This document shows positions 13,127 through 48,435 of a stretch of 64,000 nucleotides of DNA, one piece after another. A model generated the notes under the pieces. It saw only the letters and a program-made list of their open reading frames with translations. It was not told where the DNA came from and did not search any database. Each line of letters starts with the position of its first letter. The stretch's first letter is position 1. This DNA is from Streptomyces sp. NBC_01353 (GTDB lineage Bacteria > Actinomycetota > Actinomycetes > Streptomycetales > Streptomycetaceae). The stretch covers positions 5,642,001 to 5,706,000 of the forward strand of contig NZ_CP108352.1 in the NCBI RefSeq assembly GCF_036237275.1, read 5' to 3'. A program made the position numbers and the translations under genes.

Positions 13127-13132
13127 CGACCG

Positions 13133-15655: not shown

Positions 15656-15718
15656 CCTCGAGTTGAGGGGATTTGTCGATACCGCGACCAGCGCTTCTTC
15701 GCGAATCGGACCCCGGTC

Positions 15719-29085: not shown

Positions 29086-29211
29086 CCATCCCCCTGAACC
29101 CCACCGAACGTTCATCCGATGCTTTCAGAGGGCACGTGCCCCTGGAAACCGCTTGCACGGGGTCCTTGACTCGATCGTGACCGTTATTCGGGGCCACGAC
29201 ACCGGAATGCG

Positions 29212-29613
29212 TCAGTCCGCGGTGTTCACCATCGACGCGGCCGCGTACGTGAGGTACTTCCACAGCTGGCTCTCGTGCTCGGGCGCCAGACCCAGCTCGT
29301 CGACCGCGTCCCGCATGTGCCTCAGCCAGGCGTCGTGCGCCGCCTTGTCGACCGTGAACGGGGCGTGGCGCATCCGCAGCCGGGGGTGGCCGCGGTGGTC
29401 GCTGTAGGTACGGGGGCCGCCCCAGTACTGGATCAGGAAGAGCACGAGGCGCTCCTCCGCGGGCCCGAGGTCCTCCTCGGGGTACATCGGGCGCAGCAGA
29501 GGGTCCTCCGCGACTCCCTGGTAGAAGCGGCGCACGAGACGCCGGAAGGTCTCCTCGCCACCCACCTGCTCGTAGAAGGTCTGCTCCTGAAGTGTGCCGC
29601 GCGGAATCTCCAT
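29212..29613 (-). CDS. glbO: group II truncated hemoglobin (GlbO type)
   Basis: A 133-residue globin of the trHbO group, binding heme and O2/NO in the cytoplasm. The motifs are FYEQVGGEETFRRLVRRFYQGV, DPLLRPMYPEEDL (end of helix C, with Pro-Met-Tyr), LFLIQYWGGPRTYSD (the group II tryptophan motif) and HPRLRMRHAPFTV, containing the proximal histidine. GlbO proteins support respiration or NO detoxification. ATG 29613 was chosen over the GTG just upstream. It stands divergent from the methyltransferase gene at 29717, with ~100 bp between. Confidence 0.92.
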   Translation of the reverse strand: MEIPRGTLQEQTFYEQVGGEETFRRLVRRFYQGVAEDPLLRPMYPEEDLGPAEERLVLFLIQYWGGPRTYSDHRGHPRLRMRHAPFTVDKAAHDAWLRHMRDAVDELGLAPEHESQLWKYLTYAAASMVNTAD

Positions 29614-29716
29614 CACCGTTCCATCGTCTCAGATGCCCCGACGGAGGACCGGAGGTCTAGGACCACCGGCCTCCGGACCGCTCGCCTCCCCACCGCCCGC
29701 GCAGGACAGTGGAGGC

Positions 29717-30691
29717 ATGGGCGCTCAGCCGGACGGCTTCGCCGAGGACGGTGCGCGGGCGCGACAGGTTCTCGTACGGGAGATCGAGGCGTACGGCGCT
29801 CTGCGCGACCCCGCCTTGCACACGGCCTTCTCCGAGGTGCCCCGCCATCTCTTCGTCCCCTACTACTACGTCTCCGGGACCGGCGGCTACGAGCGGCTCT
29901 GGTCCGGCGACCCCGACCCCGGCCGGCGCGCACGCTGGCTGCGGGGTGCCTACCAGGACGAGCCGCTGGCCACCCGGGTACGGGACGGGGAGCTGGTCAG
30001 CTCCTCCAGCCAGCCCTCCCTGATGGCGCAGATGCTGGATGCCCTGGAGGTGCGGGACGGGCAGGACGTCCTGGAGATCGGCGCCGGCACCGGCTACAAC
30101 GCCGCCCTGCTCAGCCACCGGCTCGGCGCCGAGCACGTCACCACCGTCGATCTTGACGAGGACATCACCGAGTCCGCCCGCACCCATCTCGCCGCCGCCG
30201 GGTACCGGCCCGCCGTGATCACCGGCGACGGCGCCCGCGGCTGCCCCGAACGCGCCCCGTTCGACCGGATCGTCGCGACCTGCACCGTGCCGTCGATCCC
30301 GTACGCCTGGCTCGCCCAGTGCCGCCCCGAGGCGCTCGTCCTCGCGCCGCTCTCCACCGGGCTGATCCTGCTGCGGGTGCGCGACGCGTCCCATGCGGAG
30401 GGCCGCTTCCTGCCCACCTCCGCGTACTTCGTCGCGCTGCGCGGCGGCAACGCCCGCTTCCCCCGGCGGCGGCCGATGGGCCTGCCGCGGCAGGTGTACG
30501 ACGACGAGCGCTTCCGATTCCTGCGCACCCTGGCGGAGGACACCCTCGACGCGCGCGAAGCGCTCTCGCTCTGGCAGCGCGAGCGGCGGCCTGAGCGGGA
30601 GCGCTTCGGGGTGACGGTGCTCGGGGGTCGGCAGTGGGCCTGGCTGGACGACCCCGAGGGGCCGTACGCCTGGCCACTGCCGAGCGGCTGA
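29717..30691 (+). CDS. protein-L-isoaspartate O-methyltransferase-like SAM methyltransferase
   Basis: A 324-residue methyltransferase. The SAM-binding motif I is DVLEIGAGTGYNAALLSHR, followed by VTTVDLDEDIT (motif II) and ERAPFDRIVATCTVPSIPYAW (post-I), in the arrangement of PCMT/Pcm enzymes; SSSSQPSLMAQMLDALEV is the characteristic upstream substrate strand region. Length exceeds the ~210 aa of Pcm, with a C-terminal domain (ARFPRRRPMGLPRQ..., WLDDPEGPYAWPLPSG) typical of actinobacterial homologues. Repair of isoaspartate is therefore probable but a different acceptor is possible. GGAGGC precedes the ATG at 29717, 1-nt spacing; alternatives upstream lack support. Confidence 0.82.
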   Translation: MGAQPDGFAEDGARARQVLVREIEAYGALRDPALHTAFSEVPRHLFVPYYYVSGTGGYERLWSGDPDPGRRARWLRGAYQDEPLATRVRDGELVSSSSQPSLMAQMLDALEVRDGQDVLEIGAGTGYNAALLSHRLGAEHVTTVDLDEDITESARTHLAAAGYRPAVITGDGARGCPERAPFDRIVATCTVPSIPYAWLAQCRPEALVLAPLSTGLILLRVRDASHAEGRFLPTSAYFVALRGGNARFPRRRPMGLPRQVYDDERFRFLRTLAEDTLDAREALSLWQRERRPERERFGVTVLGGRQWAWLDDPEGPYAWPLPSG

Positions 30692-30721
30692 TCCCGGGGT
30701 CGTCGCCGGGACCCCGGCCGC

Positions 30722-31990
30722 TTATCCCCGGCGGACCGTGATCGTCGTCCAGGCGCCGACGTGCACCCGGTCGCCGTCCTGGAGCGGGACGGGCACGTAC
30801 GGCTGGATCGGTTCTTCGCCACCGTTGATCGTCGTGCCGTTGGTGGAGTTCTGGTCCACCACCGCCCATGAGCCGTCCGGCTGCTGCACCAGCACGGCGT
30901 GCTGGTGCGAGACGCCCGGGTCCTCCGGCGGCACGGAGAGGTCGATGTCGGGGGACTCGCCGGTGGAGTGCCGGCGGCGACCGATGCTGACCTGGTTGCC
31001 CTGGAGCGGCAGATGCTGCTCGGGGGAGTAGGCGGGCAGGTTCAGGCCCGTGGCCTCCGGACCGCTGCGATGCATCATCGCCATGAAGTAGTCGCGGTCC
31101 GGCCCGATGTACGCCGACCAGCCCGCGGCGGGCCGCTGCGGCTGGTACTGCTGCTGTGGCGGCTGCGGGGCGTGCTGCTGCGGCGGAGGCTGCGGGGCGT
31201 GCTGCTGCGGCGCGTGCTGCTGCATCGGGGGCGCCTGCGGCGGAGCCTGGGGCTGCGAGGGCGGCGGCAGCATCCAGTCGTCACCGCCTGCGCCACCACC
31301 GTGCTGCGGCGGGGCCTGCGGAGCGGGCTGCTGAGGCGCCTGCTGCCCGGGCGGTGGGCTCTGGAAGAAGGACGGCGGGGGCTGCGGCGGCCCCTGCTGG
31401 AACCCCTGCGGTGGCTGCGGCTGGGGAATCTGCCCCTGGGGCGGCTGCTGCTGCATCGGCGGACGCTGCGGCGGCGCCTGGTGGTGCGTGGGGTCGGCGG
31501 ACAGCGGCTCCGCCGGCCGGTTCATCTGCGACGGCCGCGAGCTCTGGTACTCGTACGGGTCCGGCTGCTGCGGAGCCTGCGGCTGCGGCGGACGCGGCGG
31601 CGACTGGAAGCCCGGCGGCAGATTGAGGCCCGGCGGCGGGCTCTGCTGCGGGGAGGGCGGCGCCACCGGCGTGTACGAGGTCGCCGTGTTGGTCAGGAAG
31701 TTCCAGCGGCACTCCTCGCAGAACGGGGCCATGGCCTCGCGCGGGGTGCGGCACTGGGGGCAGAACTCCGCCTGGGCGGTCGCGTTCGGGTCGTAGCCCC
31801 CGGGGCCGGGGCCAGGGCCACCGGGACCCTGTCCGGGTCCACCCGGACCCGGGTATCCGTAGGCCGGCGGCGGGGGCGGGGGAGGCGGCGGTACGGCACC
31901 CGCCGGCGCACCCGCCCCGGCCATGCGGTGGCCGCAGACCTCGCACCAGTCGTCGGAAACCGACTGGTGTCCGTTCGGGCAGGTCGGCAT
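30722..31990 (-). CDS. FHA-domain protein with N-terminal zinc ribbons and Pro/Gln-rich linker
   Basis: A 422-residue protein ending the kinase operon. The N-terminus has a zinc ribbon (C4, H8, C16, C19 in CPNGH...CEVCG), then a second ribbon at residues ~76-93 (CPQCRTPREAMAPFCEEC). A 200-residue Pro/Gln-rich disordered linker (repeats of PPQQHAPQ and QAPPQAPP) follows, then a C-terminal FHA domain of about 90 residues: QVSIGRRRHSTGESPDIDLS, with GR and SxxH (PGVSHQHAVL) for phosphothreonine binding, and NSTNGTTING. It should bind a phosphothreonine peptide, most likely a target of the adjacent PknG-like kinase. ATG with GGGGGAAG before it. Confidence 0.9.
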   Translation of the reverse strand: MPTCPNGHQSVSDDWCEVCGHRMAGAGAPAGAVPPPPPPPPPAYGYPGPGGPGQGPGGPGPGPGGYDPNATAQAEFCPQCRTPREAMAPFCEECRWNFLTNTATSYTPVAPPSPQQSPPPGLNLPPGFQSPPRPPQPQAPQQPDPYEYQSSRPSQMNRPAEPLSADPTHHQAPPQRPPMQQQPPQGQIPQPQPPQGFQQGPPQPPPSFFQSPPPGQQAPQQPAPQAPPQHGGGAGGDDWMLPPPSQPQAPPQAPPMQQHAPQQHAPQPPPQQHAPQPPQQQYQPQRPAAGWSAYIGPDRDYFMAMMHRSGPEATGLNLPAYSPEQHLPLQGNQVSIGRRRHSTGESPDIDLSVPPEDPGVSHQHAVLVQQPDGSWAVVDQNSTNGTTINGGEEPIQPYVPVPLQDGDRVHVGAWTTITVRRG

Positions 31991-32031
31991 GTCGGTGCTT
32001 CCCCCTCTCGTCGTCCGGCCCCCTGGCCGGG

Positions 32032-33360
32032 CTACTTCTTGACGCGAACCGTCTTGGTGGAGCGGGTCTCGAGTGTCATCTCGTCCGCTTCCGCGACCTT
32101 CGCCTTCAAACGCACAGTACCTGTCGCCGCGTCGACGACGTCCACCACCTTCGAAAGCAGTTTCGCAGTGTCCTCGTTGCCCGAGGCGGCCGCCAACTGC
32201 ACCGCGCGCCCCAGCTTGGCCGTCGCCCCGTCGTGGTCACCGGACTTCCGCGCGTCCAGGCCCTGCTGGATGACCTGCGCCAATTCGGCCTGGCCCGTGT
32301 AGTGCGCGACCTGTGGATTGATGGACGTGGACATCACCATGTCGTCCGTCCACACCGCCCGGACCAGGCCCTGACCCAGCGTCTGCGGAGTGCCGCCCGC
32401 CGGGTCGGGGACGATCAGCGCGACGCGGGCGGCGAGCATCTCCTGGCCGATTTGGGCCTGTGGCACGCGGACGCAGACGTGGTAGTCCCGGGACTCGTCG
32501 CCCCAGGAACCGGTCGGGTAGTCACCGGATCGCGGGGGCGCCTCCGTACGGCGCGAGGTCAGGTCCTCGACCGTCGGCGCGACCTGCTTGACGAAGGAGA
32601 TCTCCACCCCGACCGGGGTCCACAGGCGCAGCGCGACATCCGCGACCTCCTTGCCCATGGCGTTCTCCATCATGATGGTGAAGTCCGCGGAGAGGCCCGT
32701 CGGGTCGGCCACGATGTCGGCCGTACCGAGCAGGGCGGAGGCGATGCCGGTGACCTCCTTGACCTCCCAGTCCGTACCGACGCCACGCGCGTCACAGGTG
32801 AACCGGCCGGCGCAGGCGTCCAGCGCGGCCCGCAGGTCCTCCGGCGTCTCGTGTTCGTTGCGCCCGTCGGTGAGCAGGATGCCGTGCCGGATCGGCACCT
32901 CGGCGGAGGCCAGCAGCCGGTCCGCGAGGCTCAGCCAGGTGCCGATCGCCGTACCGCCGCCCGCGCTCAGCCGGCGCAGTGCGTCCTTGGCCTGGCCACG
33001 GGTGGCCGGTCCTGCGACGGCGAGGCGGCCGTTGCCGGGGAAGACCTCATTCGCCACATGCGTACCGGCGATCACGGCGAAGGAGGTGCCGTCGCGAAGG
33101 GCGTCGATCGCGGCGGCCGTGGCGTCCCGCGCGCCGCGCATCTTCGTCGGCGGGTAGTCCATCGAACCGGAGCAGTCGACCATGATCACCACGGCGGCGT
33201 CGGCGCCCGTGCCGCTCAGCGCCGCACCGCCACTGGTGCCGCCGCCCGTCGAGGTGACCGTGACGATGGCGCTGACCTCACGGCCGCCCTCCGGCAGGAA
33301 CTCGTTCTGGTACACGTCCACCGAGAACTGAGGCACGTTCGACTTGGAGAAGTTCGCCAT
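32032..33360 (-). CDS. von Willebrand factor A-domain protein of the kinase operon
   Basis: A 442-residue cytoplasmic protein. A vWA domain covers about residues 55-240, with the MIDAS metal site DCSGS in VVIMVDCSGSMDYPP, threonine in SAGGGTAIGTWL and aspartate in LLTDGRNEHE. The C-terminal part (about 240-442) is beta-rich, followed by two helices (QVAHYTGQAELAQVIQQGLDARKSGDHDGATAKLGRA region, TPR-like). vWA proteins usually mediate metal-dependent protein contacts. GAGGAGCC lies before the ATG. Its position between the PP2C phosphatase and the FHA protein suggests a scaffold in the same pathway. No transmembrane segment. Confidence 0.88.
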   Translation of the reverse strand: MANFSKSNVPQFSVDVYQNEFLPEGGREVSAIVTVTSTGGGTSGGAALSGTGADAAVVIMVDCSGSMDYPPTKMRGARDATAAAIDALRDGTSFAVIAGTHVANEVFPGNGRLAVAGPATRGQAKDALRRLSAGGGTAIGTWLSLADRLLASAEVPIRHGILLTDGRNEHETPEDLRAALDACAGRFTCDARGVGTDWEVKEVTGIASALLGTADIVADPTGLSADFTIMMENAMGKEVADVALRLWTPVGVEISFVKQVAPTVEDLTSRRTEAPPRSGDYPTGSWGDESRDYHVCVRVPQAQIGQEMLAARVALIVPDPAGGTPQTLGQGLVRAVWTDDMVMSTSINPQVAHYTGQAELAQVIQQGLDARKSGDHDGATAKLGRAVQLAAASGNEDTAKLLSKVVDVVDAATGTVRLKAKVAEADEMTLETRSTKTVRVKK

Positions 33361-33456
33361 GAGTTGAGGCTCCTCGACAACAAGCGTGAGACAAGCGTTG
33401 AGACAGGCGTGGGACAGGCGTGGTTCAGAGGCGAGAGGGACAGGGCCGGCGACCGC

Positions 33457-34914
33457 TCAGGCCGATCCTGCCCCTTGCGGGGAGAGGGCGAACGGCAGCA
33501 GCGCCACTGTTACGTTGTCGTGGCCCCCGCCGTCCAGGGCGTGGCCGACCAGCACCTGGGCGCCGTGCAGCAGCCGTCCGGCCGCGTCCGTCGGTACGAC
33601 CCGGGCCATGTCCTCGGCGGCCTCCGCGTAGTTCCAGAGCCCGTCCGTGCAGACCACGACCACGCCGGGCCGGTCCGGCTTGAACGCGGCCGTGTGCGGC
33701 TCCAGTTCGTACGCGTCGGCGCCCAGCCAGCCGGTGATGGCGTGGGCGCGCTCGTCCGCGTACGCCTCCGCCTCGTTCATCAGACCGGCGGCGACCATCT
33801 GGGCCGCCCAGGAGTCGTCCTGGGTCAGCCGGGCGGGCGGGGAGGTGCGGTCGTCCGGCACCCAGTAGGCCCGGCTGTCGCCGACCCAGCCGACGATCAG
33901 GAGTCCGTCGGCGACGATCGCGCCGACGATGGTGCAGGCGGGGGCGTTCTGGTGGCGGTGCGGATCGTGCTCCAAGCCGCCCTGGCCGGGCTCCTCGGCC
34001 AGCGCGTTGACCGCCTCGGCGGCGGCGACGATCGCCTCGTGCATGGCCTGCTGCGGGTGGGTGCCGCGAGGCAGGGCGGTGAGCAGCGACCGACCGGCGG
34101 CGCTCGCGGCGGCGGCGGACGCCTCGTCGGGACGGGTCGCCGAGGAGACGCCGTCGCAGACGATCGCCAGGGTGGCGGGGGAGCCGTCGGGGAGCGCGGT
34201 GGCGGAGACGGTGAACGCGTCCTCGTTGCGGTGGTGACGCAGGCCGCGGTCGCTGACGGCGGCGACCGCGGAGAGCTCCTGCTCCATGTGGTCGCGCTCA
34301 CGGGGCTGGGCGTGCCCGCAGTTCTCGCAGTACCCGTCGGGGTCCACATGTCCGGCCCGGCAGGCGACGCACAGCTTGGTCCCGGCGGGCGGGGTCGGCG
34401 TCGGCGGGGCCGTACGGGGGTCGGGCGCGGCGAGCGTGAAGTCGCCGTCGGGGCCGGGGGAGGCGGGCGCCTCCGCGGCGCCCGCAGCGCCCGCCGTCTT
34501 CGCAGCGCCCGCCGTCTCCGCGGCGAGCGCTGCGAGGCCGCTGCCGGACGTCGCGGCGGCGTGCGGTCCGTCCGTACGGACGGGGACGGTCGGCAGGTCC
34601 CGTGCGGGCCGCGCCGCCGAGGCCTCCGCGCCCTCCGGCGCCTCCGTGGTCGGGAGGTCGTGCCCGCCCGAGTCCGTGCCCGGCAGGTCGCCCGGGTGCT
34701 GGGTCACCGTCGAGAGGGAGCCGGGCTCGCGGGCCGGAGCGTCGGGCCAGCTCACGGGCGTACCGATCGCCACCGTCGGACGGTCCGGCGCCGACGCCGG
34801 TACGGCCGACAGGTCGTATCCGCACGCCCCGCAGAACCGGTCACCCGTGTCCAACGGCTCCGCGCAGCCGGGGCAGGCCGAGAGATCGTGCTGGGGCTTC
34901 TGGGACATACTCAC
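33457..34914 (-). CDS. PP2C-family Ser/Thr phosphatase with zinc-ribbon N-terminus
   Basis: A 485-residue phosphatase. Zinc ribbons occur at residues 14-31 (C14, C17, C28, C31) and again just before the catalytic domain (CVACRAGHVDPDGYCENCG). Between lies a Pro/Ala-rich disordered region. The PP2C domain begins VAAVSDRGLRHHRNEDAF (metal-binding Asp) and has AIVCDGVSSATRPDEAS (DG), VGWVGDSRAYWV, LTQDDS and HDNVTVALLPF, all metal- or phosphate-site motifs intact. It would remove phosphate from PknG substrates. The GTG at 34914 was preferred (AGGA 7 nt upstream, GTGA overlap with the kinase stop); the ATG at 34908 is an alternative. Confidence 0.9.
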   Translation of the reverse strand: MSMSQKPQHDLSACPGCAEPLDTGDRFCGACGYDLSAVPASAPDRPTVAIGTPVSWPDAPAREPGSLSTVTQHPGDLPGTDSGGHDLPTTEAPEGAEASAARPARDLPTVPVRTDGPHAAATSGSGLAALAAETAGAAKTAGAAGAAEAPASPGPDGDFTLAAPDPRTAPPTPTPPAGTKLCVACRAGHVDPDGYCENCGHAQPRERDHMEQELSAVAAVSDRGLRHHRNEDAFTVSATALPDGSPATLAIVCDGVSSATRPDEASAAAASAAGRSLLTALPRGTHPQQAMHEAIVAAAEAVNALAEEPGQGGLEHDPHRHQNAPACTIVGAIVADGLLIVGWVGDSRAYWVPDDRTSPPARLTQDDSWAAQMVAAGLMNEAEAYADERAHAITGWLGADAYELEPHTAAFKPDRPGVVVVCTDGLWNYAEAAEDMARVVPTDAAGRLLHGAQVLVGHALDGGGHDNVTVALLPFALSPQGAGSA

Positions 34915-37421
34915 ACCCACGTCCTGGGGCGGAAACGGTTGGCCCGCTCCACCAGTTCGATCCTCTCCTCGCCCCGCTGAGCGAGCCGGGCGAGCACCCG
35001 GTACGAGCGTTCGAGGCCGAAGCGCAGTCCGCGCTCGTCCAGTTCGCTGCCGAGCAGCAGTGCGCCGCCGGGTCCCGCTCCGGGACTTCCGGAGAGTACC
35101 CAGTCGAGCGCCGTGCCGAGGACCTCCGTCGACAACTGCTCCCGGCGTACCGCGTCCAGACCGAAGCCCTGGAGCGCGGAGACCTGCGCCGCCGCCGCCG
35201 TCAGATCCGCGCCGAGCGGCTCGTTCGGCGGCCGTCGCCGCAGCCGGGCCCGTACGGCCGCGACCCGGGCCGCGGTGTAGTGGATCGACGCCTCCGGTAC
35301 GGACTCCAGTGTGCGTACGGCTCCTGTGCGGTCACCGGCCGCCAACTGCACCCGGGCGAGCCCGAACGCGGCGCTGACGAAACTCGGATCGGTCGCCCAC
35401 ACCAGGCGGTAGTACTCCGCCGCGTTGTCCAGCTGCCCGAGGACCTCGGCGCAGATGCCGAGGGCCAGCTTGGGCGCGGGCTCTCCGGGGAACGCGTCGT
35501 AGATCGCGTCGAAGGACAGCGCCGCGTTCTCGTGGTCGCCGGTCACCAGGGAGGTGAGGCCGCGGTACCAGACCACCCGCCAGTCGTCCGGGACCTGCTC
35601 CTCCAGCGTGGCCAGCGCCCGCCCGGCGGAGCCGAGGTCGCTCATCTCCAGGCGGGCCCGCAGTTCGCGCAGCCGCAGCTCCAGGGAGGGCGCGGGCGCG
35701 TGGTGCAGGGCGCTGATCAGCTCGGCGGGCGCGGAGGCCATCAGTCCGGCGAGGAAGCCGGCGTTCGGGTCCGCCGGGTCCACCCGAGGGACGGGCAGCG
35801 CGAGCGACGTGGCCCGCCCGTCCAGAAGCGTGAGGAAGGGCCCGGCGCCGAACGCCCCGCCCGCCGCCCCGCCCGCTGTTCCGGCCGCCGCCCCGGTGCC
35901 CGTGCCCGGCGGCAGGGCCTTGCGGCCGCGCCGGGTCTCCCGTGCGCCCAGGGCCGACACGTCCTCGGTCAGCTCCGCGAACAACTGTGTGTCCGTGACC
36001 CGCAGTTCCGTGCCGAACAGCGTCGAGACCGCGGGGCGCGGCCGGCCGGACTGGAGGGCGACGACCTCCCGCAGCACTCCGGTCAGCTGCTCCGCCATCT
36101 CCTGCGCGGAGGAGAACCGGCGGGCCGGGTCGGGGTCCGTCGCCCGCACCAGGAGCCGGTAGAACGACTCGTACGTCCGGAAGACCTCGATGTGGTCCGG
36201 CTCGGGCAGCGAGTCGACGAAGACGTTAGTGTAGCCCTGGAAGTCGAAGGTCAGCACGGCCAGCGTGCGCGCCACCGTGTAGAGATCGCTGGCCACCGAC
36301 GGGCCGACCTCGGCCACCTCCGGGGCCTGGTAGCCGACCGTGCCGTAGATCGCGGACTCGTCGTCGTCCATCCTGCGGACCGCGCCCATGTCGATCAGCT
36401 TGAGCTGGTCCTCGGACTGGATCGCGTTGTCGACCTTGAAGTCGCAGTACAGCAGGTTCCGGCTGTGCAGGTGTCCGAGCGCCTCCAGCGCCTCGATCCC
36501 GTACGCGCAGGCCTGCTCCACCGGCAGCGGATCGCGCCGGCCGTCCGCCGTCCTGCGGTCGTTGGCGATCTCCTTGAGCGACTTGCCGCCGACGTACTCC
36601 ATGACGATGTAGCCGTCCATGGAGCCGGTGCGCTGGTCGAGGTGCTCGACGAAGTTGTAGATCCGGACGATGTTGGAGTGTTCGATCTCGGCGAGGAAGC
36701 GGCGCTCGGAGATCGCCGCGGCCATCGCGTCCTGGTCGCCGGTGTCGAGCAGGCCCTTGAGCACCACCCAGCGGTCGGAGACCGCCCGGTCGACGGCGAG
36801 GTAGATCCAGCCGAGCCCGCCGTGCGCGAGACAGCCCGCGACCTCGTACTGCCCGTGCACGATGTCGCCGCCGCGCAGCTTCGGCACGAAGGAGTACGGG
36901 TGGCCGCACTTGGTGCAGAAGCCCTCGGTGCGGCCCGGCCGGTCACCGCGCGAACGGCCCACCGGCGCCCCGCAGTCCGAGCGCGAGCAGAATCGCTTCC
37001 GCTCCGGAACCTCGGGGTTCTCCATCACCGCGGCGCGCGGGTCCGGACGCGGTACCTCCGGAATCGAGACCAGGCCGGCGCCCAGCCGGTTCCGCCCGGA
37101 CTGCGCCGCGGACGCGCCCGAGCTGCGCACCGAGACCGACCGGCTGCTGCTCCCGCCCGACAGCGAGCGCGAGAGCCGCCCGGAGACCGAGCGGCGGGAC
37201 GTGGACGAGCGGGAGGAGCGCGAGGAGGTGCGGGAGGACGCGCGCGAGCTCGACCGGGACGAGATCGACCCCTTGCCCGGCACGGCCATCCCGGTCGGGT
37301 TGGCCTGGAGCATTCCGCCCGCGGCGACGACCGGCGCGAGCCCGCAGGTGTCGCAGTACAGCTCGCCGCCGCCCATGTCCTCGTACGATCCCTCGCACGA
37401 GGGACGCTGACAGGTGCTCAC
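34911..37421 (-). CDS. pknG: PknG-like serine/threonine protein kinase with zinc ribbons and TPR-like C-terminus
   Basis: An 836-residue soluble kinase of the PknG family. The N-terminus has zinc ribbon pairs at C4/C9/C23/C26 and C145/C150/C169/C172, corresponding to the rubredoxin-like domain of mycobacterial PknG. A Ser/Arg-repeat stretch fills residues 52-101. The kinase domain runs from about 190 to 440: glycine loop AHGGLGWIYLA, Lys222 in WVVLKG, catalytic Asp327 in YCDFKVDN (HRD replaced by YCD, as in PknG) and Asp344 in IDMGAV (DFG to DMG). The C-terminal half is TPR-like helices. It is encoded with GlnH/GlnX homologues, as in mycobacteria, where GlnX-GlnH-PknG control glutamate metabolism. 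GTG start at 37421 overlaps the upstream stop. Confidence 0.9.
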   Translation of the reverse strand: MSTCQRPSCEGSYEDMGGGELYCDTCGLAPVVAAGGMLQANPTGMAVPGKGSISSRSSSRASSRTSSRSSRSSTSRRSVSGRLSRSLSGGSSSRSVSVRSSGASAAQSGRNRLGAGLVSIPEVPRPDPRAAVMENPEVPERKRFCSRSDCGAPVGRSRGDRPGRTEGFCTKCGHPYSFVPKLRGGDIVHGQYEVAGCLAHGGLGWIYLAVDRAVSDRWVVLKGLLDTGDQDAMAAAISERRFLAEIEHSNIVRIYNFVEHLDQRTGSMDGYIVMEYVGGKSLKEIANDRRTADGRRDPLPVEQACAYGIEALEALGHLHSRNLLYCDFKVDNAIQSEDQLKLIDMGAVRRMDDDESAIYGTVGYQAPEVAEVGPSVASDLYTVARTLAVLTFDFQGYTNVFVDSLPEPDHIEVFRTYESFYRLLVRATDPDPARRFSSAQEMAEQLTGVLREVVALQSGRPRPAVSTLFGTELRVTDTQLFAELTEDVSALGARETRRGRKALPPGTGTGAAAGTAGGAAGGAFGAGPFLTLLDGRATSLALPVPRVDPADPNAGFLAGLMASAPAELISALHHAPAPSLELRLRELRARLEMSDLGSAGRALATLEEQVPDDWRVVWYRGLTSLVTGDHENAALSFDAIYDAFPGEPAPKLALGICAEVLGQLDNAAEYYRLVWATDPSFVSAAFGLARVQLAAGDRTGAVRTLESVPEASIHYTAARVAAVRARLRRRPPNEPLGADLTAAAAQVSALQGFGLDAVRREQLSTEVLGTALDWVLSGSPGAGPGGALLLGSELDERGLRFGLERSYRVLARLAQRGEERIELVERANRFRPRTWV

Positions 37422-38695
37422 CACTGACTCCCTCTGGCATCTCTGGGTCCGGACAGGACCTCCGCCGCGGCCTGCTGGTACCGCAGCACCGCCTGCTCGG
37501 CGACCCGCAGGTCGCACGGCGCGCTCCACAGCATCCGGCGGGCCGCGTCGTACCGCTCGATCAGCAGCGGATCCTCGGCCGCGCCGAGGCGGGCGACCTT
37601 CGCCTTGTACGCGTCGAGCCGGCCGCGCAGCTCGGCTCGGACCGCGAGCGGCGCGGTGACCGCGGTCAAGGACTCGCGGGCACGCAGCAGTTCGTCCTCG
37701 GCCTCCCGCTCCAGGGACTCCAGGAGCGGGGAGAGCCGGTGCCACTGGGCGTGCCTGCGGTACTCGGCGGCCGTGGAGAGCCGCTCCTGGAGGACCGTCG
37801 GCGGGCCGCTGACGGCCGGCACCTCGGAGGCCGCGATCTTGGCGAGGACCTCACCGCGGGCCGCCCGGGCCTCGGCCAGCGTCCGGTCGGCCCGCGAGAG
37901 CACGTCCCGCAGCCGCAGCAGCCGCTCCTCGGAGTCCTGCCGGACCGCGAGGACCGCCTCGATCTCCCGCCGGATGTCCTCCAGGGCCCGCGCCGCCCGG
38001 TCGTACCGCTCGGTGTCGGGCCGTCCGCCGCCGGGCGCCGAACTGCCCGCCGCGGGGCGCCAGAAGGACAGCGGATCGGTGACGACCTGGGTGCGCAGCG
38101 CGGTCAGCTCGGCCGTGATCGACTCCAGCTCGTCGCCGGCCGGGTGCTCCCCGGGCCGCACCCCGACCGAGTGCGCCAGCGAGCGCGTACGCCTCAGTTC
38201 CGCGGCGAGGAGATCTATCCGGGCGGGCAGCGCGGACCAGACGGCGTCGGCGGTCACCACCATGTCGAGCGAGGAGGCGTACAGCTCGTTCATCCGCCGT
38301 ACGAGCCCCTCCAGCGTGAACCGCTCGGAGAGCAGGGCCTGCTGCTGCGCCCCGCCCGCGACGACGACACTCTCGCCGCGCAGCCGCTCGGTCAGCTCCT
38401 CCAGGTCCTCGCGACTGGACCAGCGCCGTCGCGCCCGCAGCTCACGGGCTTCGCTCAGCGCGCCGGTGTAGGCGTCGAAGTACGTCCAGAGCAGGGTGAT
38501 CGTCCGCTCGGTGGACTGCCAGCGGTCCCGGGTCCTGCCGGTCAGCTCGGCGCCTTCCAGCAGCCTGCGGCCCGCGTGGTCCTGGAGAGCGAGGAGCGAG
38601 TCCTCGACCGCCTTGTGCTCCGCGCCGAGCCGCGCCAGCGCACGGTCCACCTCGTCCCGGTCCATCACCGGCCCGGGGGTGCCCGCGACGCCCAT
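37418..38695 (-). CDS. coiled-coil protein of the PknG operon, unknown function
   Basis: A 425-residue acidic-and-basic helical protein without signal peptide or membrane segment. Heptad-rich stretches (RDEVDRALARLGAEHKAVEDSLLALQDHAGRR, ERYDRAARALEDIRREIEAVLAVRQDSEERLLRLRDVL, in parts) predict coiled coils over much of its length, so it is likely a scaffold or adaptor. It is placed between glnH and pknG, overlapping the kinase gene by 4 nt (GTGA), with GAGAGGTGATC before its ATG. I recognise no catalytic motif. Mycobacterial operons lack an obvious equivalent here, so it is one of the parts specific to this version. Confidence 0.7.
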   Translation of the reverse strand: MGVAGTPGPVMDRDEVDRALARLGAEHKAVEDSLLALQDHAGRRLLEGAELTGRTRDRWQSTERTITLLWTYFDAYTGALSEARELRARRRWSSREDLEELTERLRGESVVVAGGAQQQALLSERFTLEGLVRRMNELYASSLDMVVTADAVWSALPARIDLLAAELRRTRSLAHSVGVRPGEHPAGDELESITAELTALRTQVVTDPLSFWRPAAGSSAPGGGRPDTERYDRAARALEDIRREIEAVLAVRQDSEERLLRLRDVLSRADRTLAEARAARGEVLAKIAASEVPAVSGPPTVLQERLSTAAEYRRHAQWHRLSPLLESLEREAEDELLRARESLTAVTAPLAVRAELRGRLDAYKAKVARLGAAEDPLLIERYDAARRMLWSAPCDLRVAEQAVLRYQQAAAEVLSGPRDARGSQW

Positions 38696-38710
38696 CGATC
38701 ACCTCTCGCT

Positions 38711-39778
38711 CTACTTGTACTTCGGTGCGGGTGGCCCGGGTATCCCGGGCAGGTCCGCCTTCAGCCACTTGTCGTACGCCGCCTTCCAGGGGCCCTGGCG
38801 GTACTGCACAAGGACCTGGTTGACCCGGCGGACCAGGTCGTCGTTGCCCAGCTTGGCGGCGACTCCGTAGTACTCGGTGGTGAACGGCTTGCCCTTGAGC
38901 TCGACCGCCGGATCCTGGGCGGCCTGGCCGGCCGCCAGCGCGTTGTCCGTGAGGACGGCGTCGACCTCGCCCAGTTGGAGCCGTGCCAGGCAGTCCAGCT
39001 GGTTGGGGACGGTCAGCAGGTCCTTGTCGGCCTTGGTGTCGTCCGCCTCGTCCTTGAACGTCGCCCCGAAGGAGTTCTCCTCCAGGGCCTCGTAGGCCGT
39101 GGAGCCCTCGGCCGTGCAGACCCGCTTGCCGCTGAGCGAGGAGTCGTACCCCGTGATCGTGGAGCCCTTGGGCGCCAGGATCTGCTGGCCGACCTGGAAG
39201 TAGGCGGTGGAGAAGGCGACCTGCTCGATCCGCTTGCAGTTGATCGTCATCGTCCGCACGACGAGGTCGACCTTGCCGCTCTCCAGGGCCGCGATCCGCT
39301 GATTGGTGGGAATGGTCCGGAAGATGATGTCGTTCTCGCTGCCGAGGACGTCCTTCGCGATCGCCTTCGCCAGGTCGATGTCGAAGCCCTCGAGCGTGCG
39401 CTCCTCCGCGTTGCGGTAGCCCCAGCGGAAGCTGTTCTGGTCGACGCCGACGACGAGCTTCCCCCGGGCCTTGATCGCCGCGATCGAGGGGCCGTCGGCG
39501 CTCGACGGGGTGAGGGAGGCCTCCGGGTTCTCGCAGGTGTCCGCCTTCACGGGCACACCGACGCCCACGCCCGGCCCGGTCACCTCGGTCGCCGCCGAGT
39601 CGCCGCGGGCGCTGTGGGTGAGGGGCAGCAGGGTCAGCGAGGCTGTCAGACCGCACGCCACGGCCATGGCCGCCACCCCGCCCCAGCCGCGCAGCCGCCC
39701 GAGGGGGCGGCTGCCGAGGAGGCGCCCGCGGAGCCCGGCCGGGCCGCGCATCCTCGCGCCGTCGACGCCGTTCCGCAT
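38711..39778 (-). CDS. glnH: GlnH-like amino-acid-binding protein, membrane-anchored or secreted
   Basis: A 355-residue periplasmic-type solute-binding protein. An N-terminal helix (GGVAAMAVACGLTASLTLLPL) acts as signal or anchor; the cysteine in AVACGL could be a lipid attachment site. The SBP_bac_3 fold is clear: GKLVVGVDQNSFRWGYRN, TLEGFDIDLAKAIAK, IPTNQRIAALESGKVDLVV, GKRVCTAEGSTAYEAL and LDCLARLQLGEVDAVLTDN. It resembles glutamate/glutamine-binding proteins and mycobacterial GlnH. No permease or ATPase gene is nearby, so it is a sensor subunit rather than part of a transporter. SD GGGGGCGGG before the ATG at 39778. Confidence 0.87.
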   Translation of the reverse strand: MRNGVDGARMRGPAGLRGRLLGSRPLGRLRGWGGVAAMAVACGLTASLTLLPLTHSARGDSAATEVTGPGVGVGVPVKADTCENPEASLTPSSADGPSIAAIKARGKLVVGVDQNSFRWGYRNAEERTLEGFDIDLAKAIAKDVLGSENDIIFRTIPTNQRIAALESGKVDLVVRTMTINCKRIEQVAFSTAYFQVGQQILAPKGSTITGYDSSLSGKRVCTAEGSTAYEALEENSFGATFKDEADDTKADKDLLTVPNQLDCLARLQLGEVDAVLTDNALAAGQAAQDPAVELKGKPFTTEYYGVAAKLGNDDLVRRVNQVLVQYRQGPWKAAYDKWLKADLPGIPGPPAPKYK

Positions 39779-39789
39779 CCCGCCCCCTC

Positions 39790-41211
39790 TCACCGGTACT
39801 CCGACAGCCTGCGGTTGATGCCCACGATCGCACCGGCCGCGCCGAGCACGCCGAGCACGGCGGCGCCCAGCGGAAGGCCGGTCAGTGCTCCCCGGCCGCC
39901 CTCGGCGGCGCCGGTGAACTCGGACTGCTCGTGGGCCAGCGCCTTCTTCAGGGCGGCGTCGACCTGGTCGAACGACTGCCCGGTGGTCTGGTCGGTACCG
40001 ACGACCCGGAGCCGCGCACCCTCGAAGTCGCCCGCGTCGTCCTTCGCGCGCGCGTCCTTGTGCCGGTCCCTCCACTCGGCGGTGTGCTCCGCCACTTTGG
40101 CCAGCGGGTCGCGCCCGGCGTCGTCGTCGGCCAGCTCCCGGGCCTGGGCGAGCGCGCCGGTCAGCGCGGCCATGCTGCTCGTGTAGTCCGTCTCGTACTT
40201 GTCGTTCTTGCCGTCCTCGGTGAGGACGGCGCCGCGCGCGACCAGGGTCAGGTTCTCGTTGGCCCGCGCCTTCAGGGAGCTGATCCGCGCGGCGTTGAGG
40301 ACCTGGAGCGAGCTCTGCCCGTGCTCGCGGGCGTCGTCGAGACCGGCGCGGGCGACGGTGTGCGCCGCCGCCATCCAGAGCAGCACGACCACAGAGGCGG
40401 CGGTGGCGGCGAGCAGCCCGTGGTTGAACACCCGGTTCGTCAAGGCGTAGTTGCGCCGCTGGGCCAGGACCAGGACGGCGAGGGCGAGGATCCCGAGCGC
40501 GAGGGAGAGGTACGGCCAGTCACGGGCGTCCTCGTCGTCCTGATGGAGGCGCGCGGTCTCTGCCTCGTACAGGCGCTCGGCGGCGGGCAGCAGCTCGCTG
40601 GTCATCTGCTTGTTGGCGTACCGCAGATAGGCGCCGCCGAGCGGCAGGCCCTGCCGGTTGGCGGCGCGGGCCCGCTCGATCAGGCCGGTGTAGCGGGGAA
40701 GCTGCTCGTTGAGGGCGGCGATCTCGCGGGCCGACTCGGTCGAACCCTCGGTGCTCGCCGCAGCCTTGACCAGGAGCCGGGAGGCGGTCCTGATGTCGTC
40801 GGCGTACCGCTTCTGGACGTCCGCGGGCTCCTGCGCGCCGGCCAGGAAGGCGCTGGCGGCGGCCGTGTCGGCGTCGGCGAGCGAGCGGTAGATGTCGGCG
40901 GCGTCGGCGCTCAGCGGCTGGCTGCGGCTCACCACGTCGTCGGCGGAGGAGGCCCGGTCGGCGACCTCGAAGGAGGTGACGCCCCCGAACGCGACGACCA
41001 GCAGGGCCAGTACGGCTCCCAGGATCTGGAGCCGCCCGGGCTCGGTCGTGGCGGCGCGGCGCAGTCGCTCCTTGACCTCGCCCCAGGCACTCGGGCCGGC
41101 GGGCGGCGGAGTGACGGGCGGCACGGACGGCTGCGCGGGCACACCCGGGCCCGGCTTCGCGGGCGCGATGCCCGGTGCCGAGGCGGCGGGCGCATTCGGC
41201 GGGTATGTCAA
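39790..41211 (-). CDS. glnX: GlnX-like four-helix membrane sensor
   Basis: A 473-residue integral membrane protein, first in the operon. A proline-rich cytoplasmic tail precedes TM1 (about 61-80); an extracytoplasmic helical domain containing SRSQPLSADAADIYRSLADADTAAA follows, then a TM pair near 229-250 and 258-285, a second extracytoplasmic helical domain with STEGSTESAREIAALNEQL-like and EHGQSSLQVLNAARISSLKARANENLTL segments, and TM4 (443-468). This duplicated helical-domain layout matches GlnX, which links extracellular GlnH to cytoplasmic PknG in mycobacteria. TTG start at 41211 with GGGGGAGG 5-12 nt upstream. It is the top of a seven-gene unit. Confidence 0.82.
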   Translation of the reverse strand: MTYPPNAPAASAPGIAPAKPGPGVPAQPSVPPVTPPPAGPSAWGEVKERLRRAATTEPGRLQILGAVLALLVVAFGGVTSFEVADRASSADDVVSRSQPLSADAADIYRSLADADTAAASAFLAGAQEPADVQKRYADDIRTASRLLVKAAASTEGSTESAREIAALNEQLPRYTGLIERARAANRQGLPLGGAYLRYANKQMTSELLPAAERLYEAETARLHQDDEDARDWPYLSLALGILALAVLVLAQRRNYALTNRVFNHGLLAATAASVVVLLWMAAAHTVARAGLDDAREHGQSSLQVLNAARISSLKARANENLTLVARGAVLTEDGKNDKYETDYTSSMAALTGALAQARELADDDAGRDPLAKVAEHTAEWRDRHKDARAKDDAGDFEGARLRVVGTDQTTGQSFDQVDAALKKALAHEQSEFTGAAEGGRGALTGLPLGAAVLGVLGAAGAIVGINRRLSEYR

Positions 41212-41401
41212 CGTGGCCTCCCCCTCGGTCGATGACGACTCCCCGGAGGGCAGTATGGCCTCAGGGGCCCCACCCGCACACCAGGAATGACGCGATCTTG
41301 TTCCTATCGTGCCTCATGTCCGCGCCACCCCCGCAGGCGAACCCCCTGCTATGAATACGCCTCCCGGCCGAAATCGGTTCCACCACGTAGGAGTGAACAC
41401 G

Positions 41402-41437
41402 ACCGGCGGGGGCGCCCCGAAGGACGCCCCCGCCGGT
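41402..41437 (-). terminator. stem-loop ending the csn operon
   Basis: ACCGGCGGGGGCG (41402-41414) pairs perfectly with 41425-41437 (13 bp, 10-nt loop), 8 nt beyond the csnK stop on the minus strand. It separates the csn operon from the pknG-operon promoter. Confidence 0.85.
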
Positions 41438-41445
41438 GTGCGGCA

Positions 41446-42435
41446 TCACGCGCCGTAGTGCTCCCGCAGCCGCGCGGCCGCCCGGAGACCGTCCCCCCAC
41501 TCGTCGAGCGCGAACAGCGCCGCTCCCAGCACCGGTGGCGCGGTCACGACCCCGATCACGGCCTTCGGCGCCTTCAGGGCCAGCAGTTCGGTGATCCGGG
41601 CGTCCAACTCCGGGTGCCGCGCTGCCAGCACGCTGCCCCCCAGCATCACCGGCACCTCCTCGGCGAGCAGCCCGAGGCGCCCGAGGGCGACCGTCGACAG
41701 CGCGACGACCTCCTCCGCGAGCCGGTGCACCAGCGACCGGGCGATCGCGTCGCCCTCCGCGCTCGTACGGAACAGCACGGGCGTCAGCTCGTGCCGCCGT
41801 TCGAACGCGATACGGCCCAGGTGCAGTGCCTCGATCAGCGCGTACATGGACGGCAGCCCGAAGTGCGCGGGCAGCTCCCGTGCCAGGGCGGTCGGTTCAC
41901 CTCGCCCGTCCTCCGCGCGGGCCGCGAACCAGAGCGCCTCCTCGGCGAGCCCGCTGCCGCCGCCCCAGTCGCCGGAGATCTTCCCGATGGCGGGGAAGCG
42001 GGCGGTGCGGCCGTCCGGCACCATGCCGACACAGTTGATGCCCGCCCCGCACACGACGGCGACGCCCCGCGGCTCGTCGATCCCGGCGCGCAGGATCGCG
42101 AAGGTGTCGTTGCGGACCCGGATCGAACGGCTCCACCGCCGCGCGGACAGGGCCTTCTCCAGCTCCTGCTCCTCCACCGCCAGATCGGCGTTGGCGAGGC
42201 AGGCGGAGACGTGCGAGAACGTGGGCGGAGAGTCGGCGCCGCCGGCCTCCAACCAGGCCCGTCCGACCGCCTCCGCCAGGCCGTCCACGGCCGCCTCGAC
42301 CCCGACGACGGGGGGCTGGAAGCCGCCGCCGCGCGCCGAGCCGAGCACCCTCCCGTCCGTCCCGACCACGGCGACGTCCGTCTTGCTGTTCCCGGCGTCG
42401 ATCGCGAGGAGCGGCCCGTTCAGGTTCACGCCCAC
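41446..42435 (-). CDS. csnK: BadF/BadG-type amino-sugar kinase of the csn operon
   Basis: A 329-residue ASKHA-fold kinase like eukaryotic N-acetylglucosamine kinase. The phosphate-1 motif is LLAIDAGNSKTDVAVV; the connect and adenosine parts are RVRNDTFAILRAG, VAVVCGAGINCVGM (phosphate 2) and EVPVMLGGSVL. It phosphorylates the glucosamine released inside the cell by CsnH. It overlaps csnH by 10 nt if the GTG at 42435 is used (GGGAG 8 nt upstream); a GTG at 42429 gives the common 4-nt overlap. Last gene before the terminator. Assignment as CsnK rests on operon context and family. Confidence 0.85.
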   Translation of the reverse strand: MGVNLNGPLLAIDAGNSKTDVAVVGTDGRVLGSARGGGFQPPVVGVEAAVDGLAEAVGRAWLEAGGADSPPTFSHVSACLANADLAVEEQELEKALSARRWSRSIRVRNDTFAILRAGIDEPRGVAVVCGAGINCVGMVPDGRTARFPAIGKISGDWGGGSGLAEEALWFAARAEDGRGEPTALARELPAHFGLPSMYALIEALHLGRIAFERRHELTPVLFRTSAEGDAIARSLVHRLAEEVVALSTVALGRLGLLAEEVPVMLGGSVLAARHPELDARITELLALKAPKAVIGVVTAPPVLGAALFALDEWGDGLRAAARLREHYGA

Positions 42436-43787
42436 GCGAGGTGCTCCCGGTTGTGCGCGATCAGCCGGTCGGTGAGCGCGTCGGCGTACGCGTACTGCCC
42501 CACCAGGGGGTGCGCCAGCAGTGCCCTGAACACCCGCTCGCGGCCGCCGCGCAGCGCCGCCTCCAGGGCCAGGTCCTCGTACGCGGTCACGTTCGCGATC
42601 AGCCCGGCGTACAGCGGGTCCAGCGGGCCGACCGGCAGCGGCGAGACACCCTGCGGCCCCACCGCCGCCTGCACCTCGATGACGGCGTCGTCCGGCAGGA
42701 ACGGCAGCGTGCCGCCGTTGTACGTGTTCACCACCTGGTACGGCGAACCACCGCCCGCCCGTCGCCCACCGCCACCCTCAACGGATGGCCCTTCGGGCCC
42801 GCTGCTGCTTCCCAGGAGAGACGCCGCCAGGTCCACGGCGGCCTCCGAGTAGAACGCGCCGCCACGCTTGCCGAGCAGCGCCGGCTTCTCGTCGAGCGCC
42901 GGGTCCCCGTACATCTCCAGGAGTTCCTTCTCCATCGCGGCGACCTCGGCGGCCCGCGAGGGCTTGGAGCCGAGCTCCCGTACGACCTCGTCATGCGCGT
43001 AGAAGTACCGCAGGTAGTAGGAGGGGACGACGCCGAGGCGGTCCACGATCGCGTGCGGCAGACGGAGGTCGTCGGCGATGGCCTCGCCGTGCTCGGCGAG
43101 CAGCCGGGGCAGGACGTTCTCGCCCTCGGGCCCGCCGAGGCGGACGGCCGTCTCCCAGGTCAGGTGGTTGAGCCCGACATGGTCGAGATGGACGTCGGCC
43201 GGTGCCACGTCGAGCATCCCGGCGAACTTCCGCTGGAAGCCGATGGCCACGTTGCACAGCCCGACGGCCTTGTGGCCGGCCTGGAGCAGCGCACGCGTGA
43301 CGATGCCGACGGGGTTGGTGAAGTCGATGATCCAGGCGTCCGGGTTGGTCCGCCGGACCCGCTCGGCGATGTCCAGAACCACCGGCACGGTCCGCAGCGC
43401 CTTGGCGAGCCCACCGGCACCGGTGGTCTCCTGCCCGACACAGCCGCACTCCAGCGGCCAGGTCTCGTCCTGGTTCCGCGCGGCCTGCCCGCCGACCCGC
43501 AGCTGGAGCAGGACGGCGTCCGCGCCCTCCACTCCGGCGTCGATGTCGGAGGTGGTGACGATCTTCCCCTCGTGGCCCTGCTTGGCGAAGATCCGCCGGG
43601 CGAGCCCGCCGACCAGCTCCAGTCGGTCGGCGGCCGGGTCGACGAGGACGAGTTCGGTGATGGGCAGGGTGTCGCGCAACCGCGCGAATCCGTCGATCAG
43701 TTCGGGGGTGTAGGTGGAGCCGCCCCCCACGACAGCAATCTTTGACGCCCGGGGGTGCGGGGGTTGTCCCCCGATTGACTGCAGCAT
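42426..43787 (-). CDS. csnH: GH4-family glycosidase, 6-phospho-beta-glucosidase-like, of the csn operon
   Basis: A 453-residue NAD- and metal-dependent glycoside hydrolase of family 4. VVGGGSTYTPEL (NAD loop, near residue 20), LLQLRVGGQAARNQDE, DFTNPVGIVT (catalytic Asp region), GLCNVAIGFQRKF (metal-binding Cys) and VGLNHLTWETAV (metal-binding His) are all present, so the enzyme should be active. It hydrolyses imported chitosan oligosaccharides or glucosaminides. An unusual Gly/Ser/Pro/Arg-rich insert (GPEGPSVEGGGGRRAGGG) near residues 320-340 looks like an added flexible loop. The next gene starts within its end. csn assignment from gene order and operator. Confidence 0.86.
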   Translation of the reverse strand: MLQSIGGQPPHPRASKIAVVGGGSTYTPELIDGFARLRDTLPITELVLVDPAADRLELVGGLARRIFAKQGHEGKIVTTSDIDAGVEGADAVLLQLRVGGQAARNQDETWPLECGCVGQETTGAGGLAKALRTVPVVLDIAERVRRTNPDAWIIDFTNPVGIVTRALLQAGHKAVGLCNVAIGFQRKFAGMLDVAPADVHLDHVGLNHLTWETAVRLGGPEGENVLPRLLAEHGEAIADDLRLPHAIVDRLGVVPSYYLRYFYAHDEVVRELGSKPSRAAEVAAMEKELLEMYGDPALDEKPALLGKRGGAFYSEAAVDLAASLLGSSSGPEGPSVEGGGGRRAGGGSPYQVVNTYNGGTLPFLPDDAVIEVQAAVGPQGVSPLPVGPLDPLYAGLIANVTAYEDLALEAALRGGRERVFRALLAHPLVGQYAYADALTDRLIAHNREHLAWA

Positions 43788-43793
43788 GGCGTA

Positions 43794-44678: not shown

Positions 44679-44681
44679 GGA

Positions 44682-45677: not shown

Positions 45678-45696
45678 GAGGAGTGCGCCCCCACCG

Positions 45697-47034: not shown

Positions 47035-47147
47035 GGCGAAATCTCCCTGTGGCGGAGGGGGTTACGGGGGGAAGGGGTACGACGAAGAGACGGCCGTGAG
47101 CCGAGTGGTGGGCCGGTGGTGAGTCGGGTGGTGGGAGGTCCGCGGTC

Positions 47148-48362: not shown

Positions 48363-48435
48363 GACGATGCACCTGCCCTTCGGCTCTGGAGGGGCCATTC
48401 TGCTGCCCCGCCGCCTGCTCCCCCAACCGCACTGT

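Follow-up and report, generated by a model that had tools for sequence, protein, structure and literature searches.

The window analysed here is a 64,000-nucleotide stretch of the 8.57 Mb genome of Streptomyces sp. NBC_01353 (contig NZ_CP108352.1, positions 5,642,001–5,706,000). Positions 30722–41211 of this window are filled by seven minus-strand open reading frames (ORFs) that encode, in order, the sensor GlnX, the binding protein GlnH, an all-helical protein (CC), the kinase PknG, a PP2C phosphatase, a vWA protein and an FHA protein. On balance, we consider it probable that this operon represents the PknG nutrient-signalling system of actinobacteria in its full form, with separable parts and with the mechanism proposed below. 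The seven-gene block is widespread and is not a chance association. A further reading, which we put forward tentatively, is that the seven-gene operon is ancestral and that its vWA–FHA pair corresponds, in bacteria, to the ArnA–ArnB pair of archaea, with vWA serving as the hub to which zinc-ribbon proteins (PknG, PP2C, FHA and GarA) attach. Mycobacteria would then have lost the hub, the reader and the eraser, together with the PknG and GarA ribbons. No description of the wider seven-gene operon was found in the open-licence full-text literature; other papers, particularly subscription ones, may hold one.

Components of the operon

39790–41211, minus strand: GlnX-family membrane sensor, 473 amino acids (NCBIfam NF058618, 480.5 bits, cut-off 250)
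38711–39778, minus strand: GlnH-like solute-binding protein, 355 amino acids (SBP_bac_3, E 1.2e-26; best PDB match GlnH 6h1u, E 3.5e-50)
37418–38695, minus strand: CC, all-helical protein, 425 amino acids (AlphaFold2 model, pLDDT 93.1, nearly all helix)
34911–37421, minus strand: PknG-type kinase with zinc ribbon, Ser/Arg-rich linker, rubredoxin, kinase and TPR parts (GTG start, 4-nt overlap with the CC stop)
37344–37412, minus strand: N-terminal zinc ribbon of PknG
37119–37268, minus strand: Ser/Arg-rich linker of PknG (mean S+R fraction 0.455)
33457–34914, minus strand: PP2C phosphatase with two N-terminal zinc ribbons (PP2C_2, E 1e-11; GTG start, 4-nt overlap with the PknG stop)
32032–33360, minus strand: vWA protein, 442 amino acids, with split beta-sandwich, vWA and C-terminal helical domains (VWA_3_C, E 4.8e-24)
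32050–32085, minus strand: conserved C-terminal tail of vWA, residues 426–437, candidate phosphosite and FHA ligand
30722–31990, minus strand: FHA protein, 422 amino acids, with two N-terminal zinc ribbons (FHA, E 2e-16)
31709–31762, minus strand: second zinc ribbon of FHA, C77–C94, aligned to the ArnA zinc ribbon (C77, C91 and C94 invariant in 19/19)

An earlier note on this DNA, made from the letters alone, had described these seven genes in this order on this strand. The order is as it described, and its gene identities are borne out by Pfam families for GlnH, PknG, PP2C, vWA and FHA and by NCBIfam for GlnX. Its statement that the genes are joined by short gaps or 4-nt overlaps holds for five junctions (GlnX/GlnH, 11 nt; GlnH/CC, 15 nt; CC/PknG and PknG/PP2C, each a 4-nt GTGA overlap; vWA/FHA, 41 nt) and fails for PP2C/vWA, where the gap of 96 nt (33361–33456) is not short.

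PknG matches Pfam PknG_rubred, Pkinase and PknG_TPR as well as PDB 2pzi (E 7.9e-174). Its catalytic residues are kept in the window's own sequence, and the three motifs are present in 114–116 of 119 seven-gene loci. GlnX has no Pfam match above cut-off and scores 183.2 bits against the mycobacterial-type equivalog NF041460 (cut-off 780), so that only this narrower label fails. When the Asp/Glu-binding residues of GlnH were mapped by hand on the alignment, in the numbering of PMC6069109, R147, T162, R169 and D250 were found to be kept, together with the replacements K161R, S164T and W232Q. CC belongs to no family in Pfam or NCBIfam and its model had no PDB match at E<=0.001, with TM-scores of at most 0.25 among the matches listed (50 of 139); any function assigned to it is a guess.

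Conservation and co-occurrence

Profiles of the seven proteins were scored on the ORFs of the window and of 180 further stretches, each ORF being assigned to its best profile. The 80 named loci of the Streptomyces group comprised 62 with uncut flanks and 18 cut by a contig edge. All seven genes are present in order in 61 of the former, the exception being L150, whose vWA and FHA lie in one frame; of the latter, 7 show all seven in order and 11 end after vWA, PP2C or PknG. The L150 record is labelled Microtetraspora glauca though its locus groups with Streptomyces, and it was counted with the Streptomyces loci. Its single ORF of 1671 amino acids (12234–17246) is a fusion or possibly a frame error and was not used as evidence. 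In the sample of the window's genus (f1), 26 loci including the window are complete and in order, with PknG in two frames in L070 and CC in two pieces in L065; the remaining loci are one cut by a contig edge, one decayed and nine paralogous.

Elsewhere the seven-gene order recurs in families f7 (5/5 loci), f88 (1/1), f108 (1/1) and f93 (9/18). In f92, the order CC-PknG-PP2C-vWA-FHA-GlnX-GlnH is seen in 11 of 20 loci, and in one locus from outside the class (L054) the five-gene core is accompanied by GlnH and GlnX on the opposite strand. Family f3, which is taken here to be the mycobacterial family, contributed 15 loci, of which 12 have only GlnX-GlnH-PknG, two have PknG alone and one (L210) has all seven. 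The genome that carries L210 (G595) has three PknG loci in all: a three-gene one, L210 itself and a third GlnX-GlnH-PknG locus (L209–L211). Outside f3, reduced loci were found in f10 (L052, GlnX-GlnH-PknG only) and f92 (L175).

Among 296 genomes of the class, PknG_TPR was found in 107 and VWA_3_C in 76, with 71 having both and five only vWA (Fisher p 8e-35, uncorrected for kinship). vWA is present in 70 of 80 PknG genomes outside f3 and in 1 of 27 in f3, and 63 of 92 vWA matches lie within 8 kb of a PknG match. CC occurs in 76 of the 296 genomes, 73 of which have PknG; the remaining three are Streptomyces that have lost the kinase. Gene order and co-occurrence in other genomes support the link to PknG and the single unit that the earlier note proposed; the lack of co-occurrence elsewhere that the note had named as a ground for refutation was not seen.

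Loci that have lost parts

Two f93 loci (L192 and L224) encode CC, a rubredoxin-kinase protein without the TPR part, PP2C, vWA and FHA, and lack GlnX and GlnH. Joint absence of the TPR part and GlnX/GlnH fits the published proposal that GlnX signals to PknG through the TPR (PMC8546545). Locus L233 keeps CC, PP2C, vWA and FHA next to remnants of GlnX, GlnH and PknG.

A PknG-rubredoxin match was found in 228 of 236 Streptomyces genomes. CC was sought in 11 genomes: the eight without such a match, G829, whose weak match is a paralogue elsewhere, and G590 and G622 from the class sample. Six Streptomyces loci were found to have lost GlnX and PknG, five of them also vWA. In G590, G622 and G829, CC, PP2C and FHA occupy their native position, GlnX, GlnH and vWA can no longer be recognised, and an 18-bit scrap of PknG is left in G590. 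G295 has intact CC, PP2C and FHA together with fragments of GlnX, GlnH, PknG and vWA; in G707, GlnX is gone, GlnH is divergent and lacks a stretch, and PknG and vWA are reduced to their ends; and G843 has lost GlnX, GlnH and PknG and kept vWA. PP2C and FHA are whole in all six loci read, CC being present by design of the search. Among the remaining genomes, G734 has FHA and no CC match and G638 has neither (both are draft genomes whose loci were not read), and the loci of G657, G724 and G733 end at contig breaks.

The six kinase-loss loci lie on several branches and represent four changes, at least three of which are forced by well-supported branches. In the sister pair G590/G829, dN/dS is 0.27 for CC, 0.42 for PP2C and 0.51 for FHA, compared with 0.14–0.27, 0.20–0.47 and 0.27–0.40, respectively, in six full-operon pairs. 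In the pair that lost the kinase, selection on the three genes thus remains purifying, if somewhat relaxed. The full set of five PP2C motifs is present in 5/6 of the kinase-loss loci, the three FHA motifs in 6/6 and the FHA ribbon pattern in 5/6. Because they are whole and under purifying selection, the reader and the eraser seem to have work to do without PknG, and the self-contained phosphorylation circuit envisaged in the earlier note is not supported. vWA, lost together with PknG in five of the six loci, is the better candidate for an operon-encoded substrate.

The vWA protein and its tail

The vWA protein contains Pfam domains VWA_3 and VWA_3_C, and its AlphaFold2 model (m693214c29003, pLDDT 89.7) comprises a split beta-sandwich, a vWA domain and a helical part at the C-terminus. 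A full-length match to PDB 4FX5 from Catenulispora acidiphila (E 3.2e-139) identifies it, by sequence, as an orthologue of that protein. Residues D62, S64, S66, T137 and D165 of the metal-ion-dependent adhesion site (MIDAS) are invariant in 21/21 aligned operon vWA, as are D426, L430, S434 and T437 of the tail. In the FHA protein, G337, R338, S361 and N384 are invariant in 19/19 aligned members.

The tail pattern was found in 133 of 136 vWA whose locus shows FHA, two ORFs running off their stretch having been left out of the count; the exceptions are the paralogous f93 loci L189 and L203 and the broken vWA of L081. For another 17 vWA no separate FHA is visible. Seven of them lie at contig edges, and each of these has the tail; one is the fused frame of L150; and nine are PknG-vWA paralogues. 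The complete tail is missing from all nine paralogues, with L079 and L080 retaining a part, and seven of the nine possess their own C-terminal zinc ribbon (recognised by pattern in six, by eye in L222). Such ribbons on FHA-less vWA would be expected if this vWA is a docking site for a zinc ribbon. The ribbon-bearing paralogues that were placed in the PknG tree form one clade, so the gain may have been a single event. We propose that PknG may phosphorylate the conserved vWA tail, that FHA may read the mark and that PP2C may erase it. One of the paralogue pairs (L078, 8029–13418) lies beside a gene that resembles, by its N-terminus, a trypsin-type protease.

Likeness to ArnA–ArnB and other known systems

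In Sulfolobus, the ArnA zinc ribbon loosely holds unphosphorylated ArnB and the FHA domain tightly binds phosphorylated ArnB, and the kinase ArnC, which has a TPR-like stretch, and the phosphatase PP2A act according to nutrients (PMC12852372). The vWA–FHA pair of the operon resembles ArnA–ArnB. With a profile of 19 operon FHA proteins, the two best PDB matches are both ArnA (8S05, chain 8s05_C, E 6.2e-12; 5A8I, E 1.8e-11) and span the ribbon and the FHA domain. The FHA protein has the zinc ribbon and the FHA domain with phosphothreonine-binding residues of an ArnA-type protein, and the vWA model has the split beta-sandwich and C-terminal helical domain of the ArnB type. A Foldseek search of the PDB with the vWA model returned 4FX5 first and both ArnB chains of 8S05 next (E 2.2e-20 and 1.2e-18), followed by the ArnB paralogue 5A8J (3.8e-18) and then a drop to 2e-14; alignment with 8s05_A gave TM-scores of 0.64/0.73 over 441 columns. 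Since the sequence match to ArnB covers the vWA domain only, we suggest that the protein may work like ArnB, not that it is an ArnB.

The two systems (PMC6509490, PMC12852372; 8S05, 5A8I, 5A8J) share a zinc-ribbon FHA, a tripartite vWA, a kinase with TPR-like repeats, a phosphatase and a nutrient cue. The Sulfolobus system differs in being archaeal, in using PP2A instead of PP2C and in having the archaellum as its output, and no GlnX or GlnH is reported for it in the passages of these papers that were consulted. Both papers treat 4FX5 as a structural relative only; the authors of PMC12852372 call it a structural orthologue and place the blueprint mostly outside multi-phosphorylation-dependent processes. 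The operon orthologue of 4FX5 is encoded in a kinase operon, between the genes for PP2C and the zinc-ribbon FHA. No paper tying 4FX5 to a PknG operon was found, in a literature search that was not aimed at that term.

Combinations of a kinase, PP2C, vWA and FHA are reported from other settings, namely the actinobacterial GAP1-N2 systems (PMC7159879) and PpkA/PppA/Fha of the type VI secretion system (T6SS), and loci with PP2C, vWA and FHA and no kinase exist (L188, L225, L226, L228 and, with a shortened vWA, L229). Such a generic triad might have taken up PknG by chance and have no tie to GarA or nitrogen metabolism. We regard this as rather unlikely, since VWA_3_C (71/76) and CC (73/76) are nearly confined to PknG genomes and GlnX and GlnH are kept with the block in most families sampled. 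A T6SS identity for the operon itself was rejected: in the T6SS, the vWA is fused to the kinase (PMC1262709), whereas here it is separate and the kinase is of PknG type, and no T6SS structural genes were found among the nine flanking proteins scanned.

Zinc ribbons of the operon proteins and GarA

A C..C–C..C ribbon is present in 129 of 132 operon FHA proteins; 144 of 145 PP2C have at least one ribbon and 131 have two (the PP2C motif itself was found in 127/141). The N-terminal ribbon of PknG is present in all 108 proteins of the Streptomyces type whose glycine-loop anchor was located, and in none of 13 f3 PknG (L210 excluded); in some f93 PknG, one cysteine of the ribbon is missing. The background is 6 of 748 other coding-like ORFs in the same stretches. 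At least nine of the 13 f3 PknG have threonine-glutamine motifs in the N-terminal stretch instead of the ribbon, and in M. tuberculosis N-terminal phosphothreonines of PknG recruit GarA (PMC8546545). The linker has at least five RS/SR pairs in 102/108 Streptomyces-type PknG versus 1/44 PknG of other families.

GarA has a ribbon in 39 of 41 genomes with the operon FHA and in 4 of 24 without it; the association with PknG is weaker, the GarA ribbon being present in 36 of 49 genomes that have PknG and in 7 of 16 that lack it (all raw counts). These numbers are suggestive of a GarA ribbon that tracks the operon.

Which form of the operon is older

The mycobacterial and corynebacterial glnX-glnH-pknG systems with GarA/OdhI (PMC6069109, PMC8546545, PMC9769921), a three-gene arrangement that is widely conserved (PMC6069109), share with Streptomyces the order of GlnX, GlnH and PknG and a GarA with the ETTS motif. 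Streptomyces differs in having four extra conserved genes, a zinc ribbon on PknG and GarA, no TQ-rich PknG N-terminus in the style of f3, and a GlnX under the mycobacterial equivalog cut-off.

The earlier note took the accessory genes to be additions in this lineage; from trees and gene order they look ancestral and lost in the mycobacterial family, which is not proved. In a quick PknG tree of 66 rows, the three-gene forms fall inside the seven-gene forms, the outgroup being divergent PknG-vWA paralogues that do not form one side of a branch. A careful tree, in which long and near-duplicate rows were dropped to leave 45 of the 66, places the seven-gene L210 as sister to 12 other f3 rows (support for the joint clade 100/99). 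A tree of PP2C, vWA and FHA from 24 loci recovers largely the same family clades, with L210 on its own deep, long branch. Parsimony favours, as the simplest reading, a three-gene f3 form reduced from the seven-gene one; this reduction is unproved, given the uncertain root and the chance that L210 was acquired by transfer.

Conversely, the three-gene operon could be the ancestral form, with CC, PP2C, vWA and FHA joining it later and spreading by transfer. The uncertain root and the poorly resolved deep PknG backbone leave room for this, as does G595, which has a seven-gene copy alongside a three-gene one. We judge it unlikely, given that seven-gene loci sit on several deep branches, one of them outside the class (L054), that the well-supported clade joins L210 to the other f3 rows, and that the PP2C, vWA and FHA tree largely repeats the family clades with L210 as a deep line of its own.

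GarA and the role of the FHA protein

GarA was found in all 65 genomes searched. In the window's genome it is encoded about 1.5 Mb from the operon (G000:C1:7224749-7225276), carries ETTS and an N-terminal zinc ribbon, and scores 190.2 bits, slightly short of the OdhI cut-off of 200. The ETTS motif holds the kinase sites and is phosphorylated in Saccharopolyspora too, and GarA is under the control of PknB as well as PknG (PMC12321487); in Corynebacterium, the phosphatase Ppp resets OdhI (PMC9769921). The ETTS column is not conserved in 19 aligned operon FHA proteins, and the operon FHA scores 20.3 bits against the same cut-off. Since it has no ETTS motif and the canonical substrate GarA is encoded elsewhere, the operon FHA is probably a reader. 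The earlier note's proposal that the FHA protein or a partner is the kinase substrate is therefore not supported as regards FHA. That FHA is a second GarA-like regulator phosphorylated by PknG, as its position next to PknG and an FHA domain in common with GarA (profile E 1.1e-8 to 6i2q) could suggest, is quite improbable in view of the missing ETTS column, its score of 20.3 bits compared with 190.2 for GarA and its retention where PknG is lost.

Proposed mechanism

Published mycobacterial and corynebacterial work suggests that GlnH would bind an acidic amino acid outside the cell, that GlnX would pass on the signal and that the TPR of PknG would receive it. By homology, PknG is expected to phosphorylate GarA at ETTS and thereby to free 2-oxoglutarate dehydrogenase. 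As a new step, PknG may also phosphorylate the C-terminal tail of vWA, on which FHA would dock by its zinc ribbon and then, after phosphorylation, by its FHA domain, as ArnA does on ArnB. PP2C would remove the phosphates. CC, co-retained with PP2C and FHA, may be a scaffold for both, and all three, being kept under selection where PknG is gone, may also serve other kinases. The mycobacterial family would have kept the input and the kinase and lost the rest.

Several observations weigh against this reading. By the hand mapping, Gln stands in GlnH at the place of W232, which contacts the ligand in the M. tuberculosis protein. FHA is kept in five loci lacking vWA, and vWA is therefore not its only partner. 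The fold match between vWA and ArnB has 14% identity and a root-mean-square deviation of 5.6 A; the tripartite vWA fold also occurs in Sec23/24 and other proteins, and in the sequence match to 8s05_A, confined to the vWA domain, other vWA proteins score better. In the FHA profile search, the plant FHA domain 1uht (2.9e-10) follows closely on ArnA, with GarA at 1.1e-8, and the window's FHA alone finds no ArnA in the PDB at E<=0.01. The GarA ribbon association rests on about four changes, for which a test of independent pairs is without power, and the deep backbone of the careful PknG tree is unresolved.

PknG is a much-studied kinase known from an operon of three genes. Should the seven-gene form be the original one, the mycobacterial models describe a reduced system, and a phosphatase, a reader and an adaptor that go with PknG elsewhere have been overlooked. 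The operon names partners with which to test how PknG signalling is turned off, gives the solved structure 4FX5 a pathway and connects a nutrient kinase of bacteria with a starvation switch of archaea. For Streptomyces, it is relevant to the 2-oxoglutarate node, a source of antibiotic precursors.

The PP2C–vWA gap and neighbouring genes

The PP2C–vWA gap was considered as a possible internal promoter, for which it offers no evidence: in 72 loci it measures 45–262 nt and is little conserved except for a purine-rich stretch before the start. A scan for sigma-70-like promoters in 29500–42500 gave none (shuffle mean 0.2), which says little for Streptomyces. The gap of some Streptomyces contains an inverted repeat, CGGACCG...CGGTCCG, absent from the window's own gap, which is possibly an attenuator or operator.

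The earlier note's remark that no permease or ATPase lies near glnH is right for the ATPase, as no ABC ATPase or amino-acid-type importer was found among nine neighbours scanned, and wrong for the permease. Two ABC permease genes, accompanied by a sugar-type binding protein of their own, are found on the same strand at 2.6–4.5 kb upstream of glnX, and downstream of the operon there is an FtsX-type permease gene (25744–29115). The upstream permeases do not form an amino-acid importer, as they accompany genes for the sugar-type binding protein, GH4 and ROK; the whole region (41446–48398, minus strand) holds ROK, sugar-type binding protein, two ABC permease, GH4 and BadF-type genes. GH4 and BadF are near the operon in 59/62 named loci, so this neighbourhood is stable in the genus. 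Downstream are a bacterial globin gene (29212–29616, minus strand), found in 61/62 named loci, and a PCMT-type methyltransferase gene (29594–30691, plus strand), found in 55/62.

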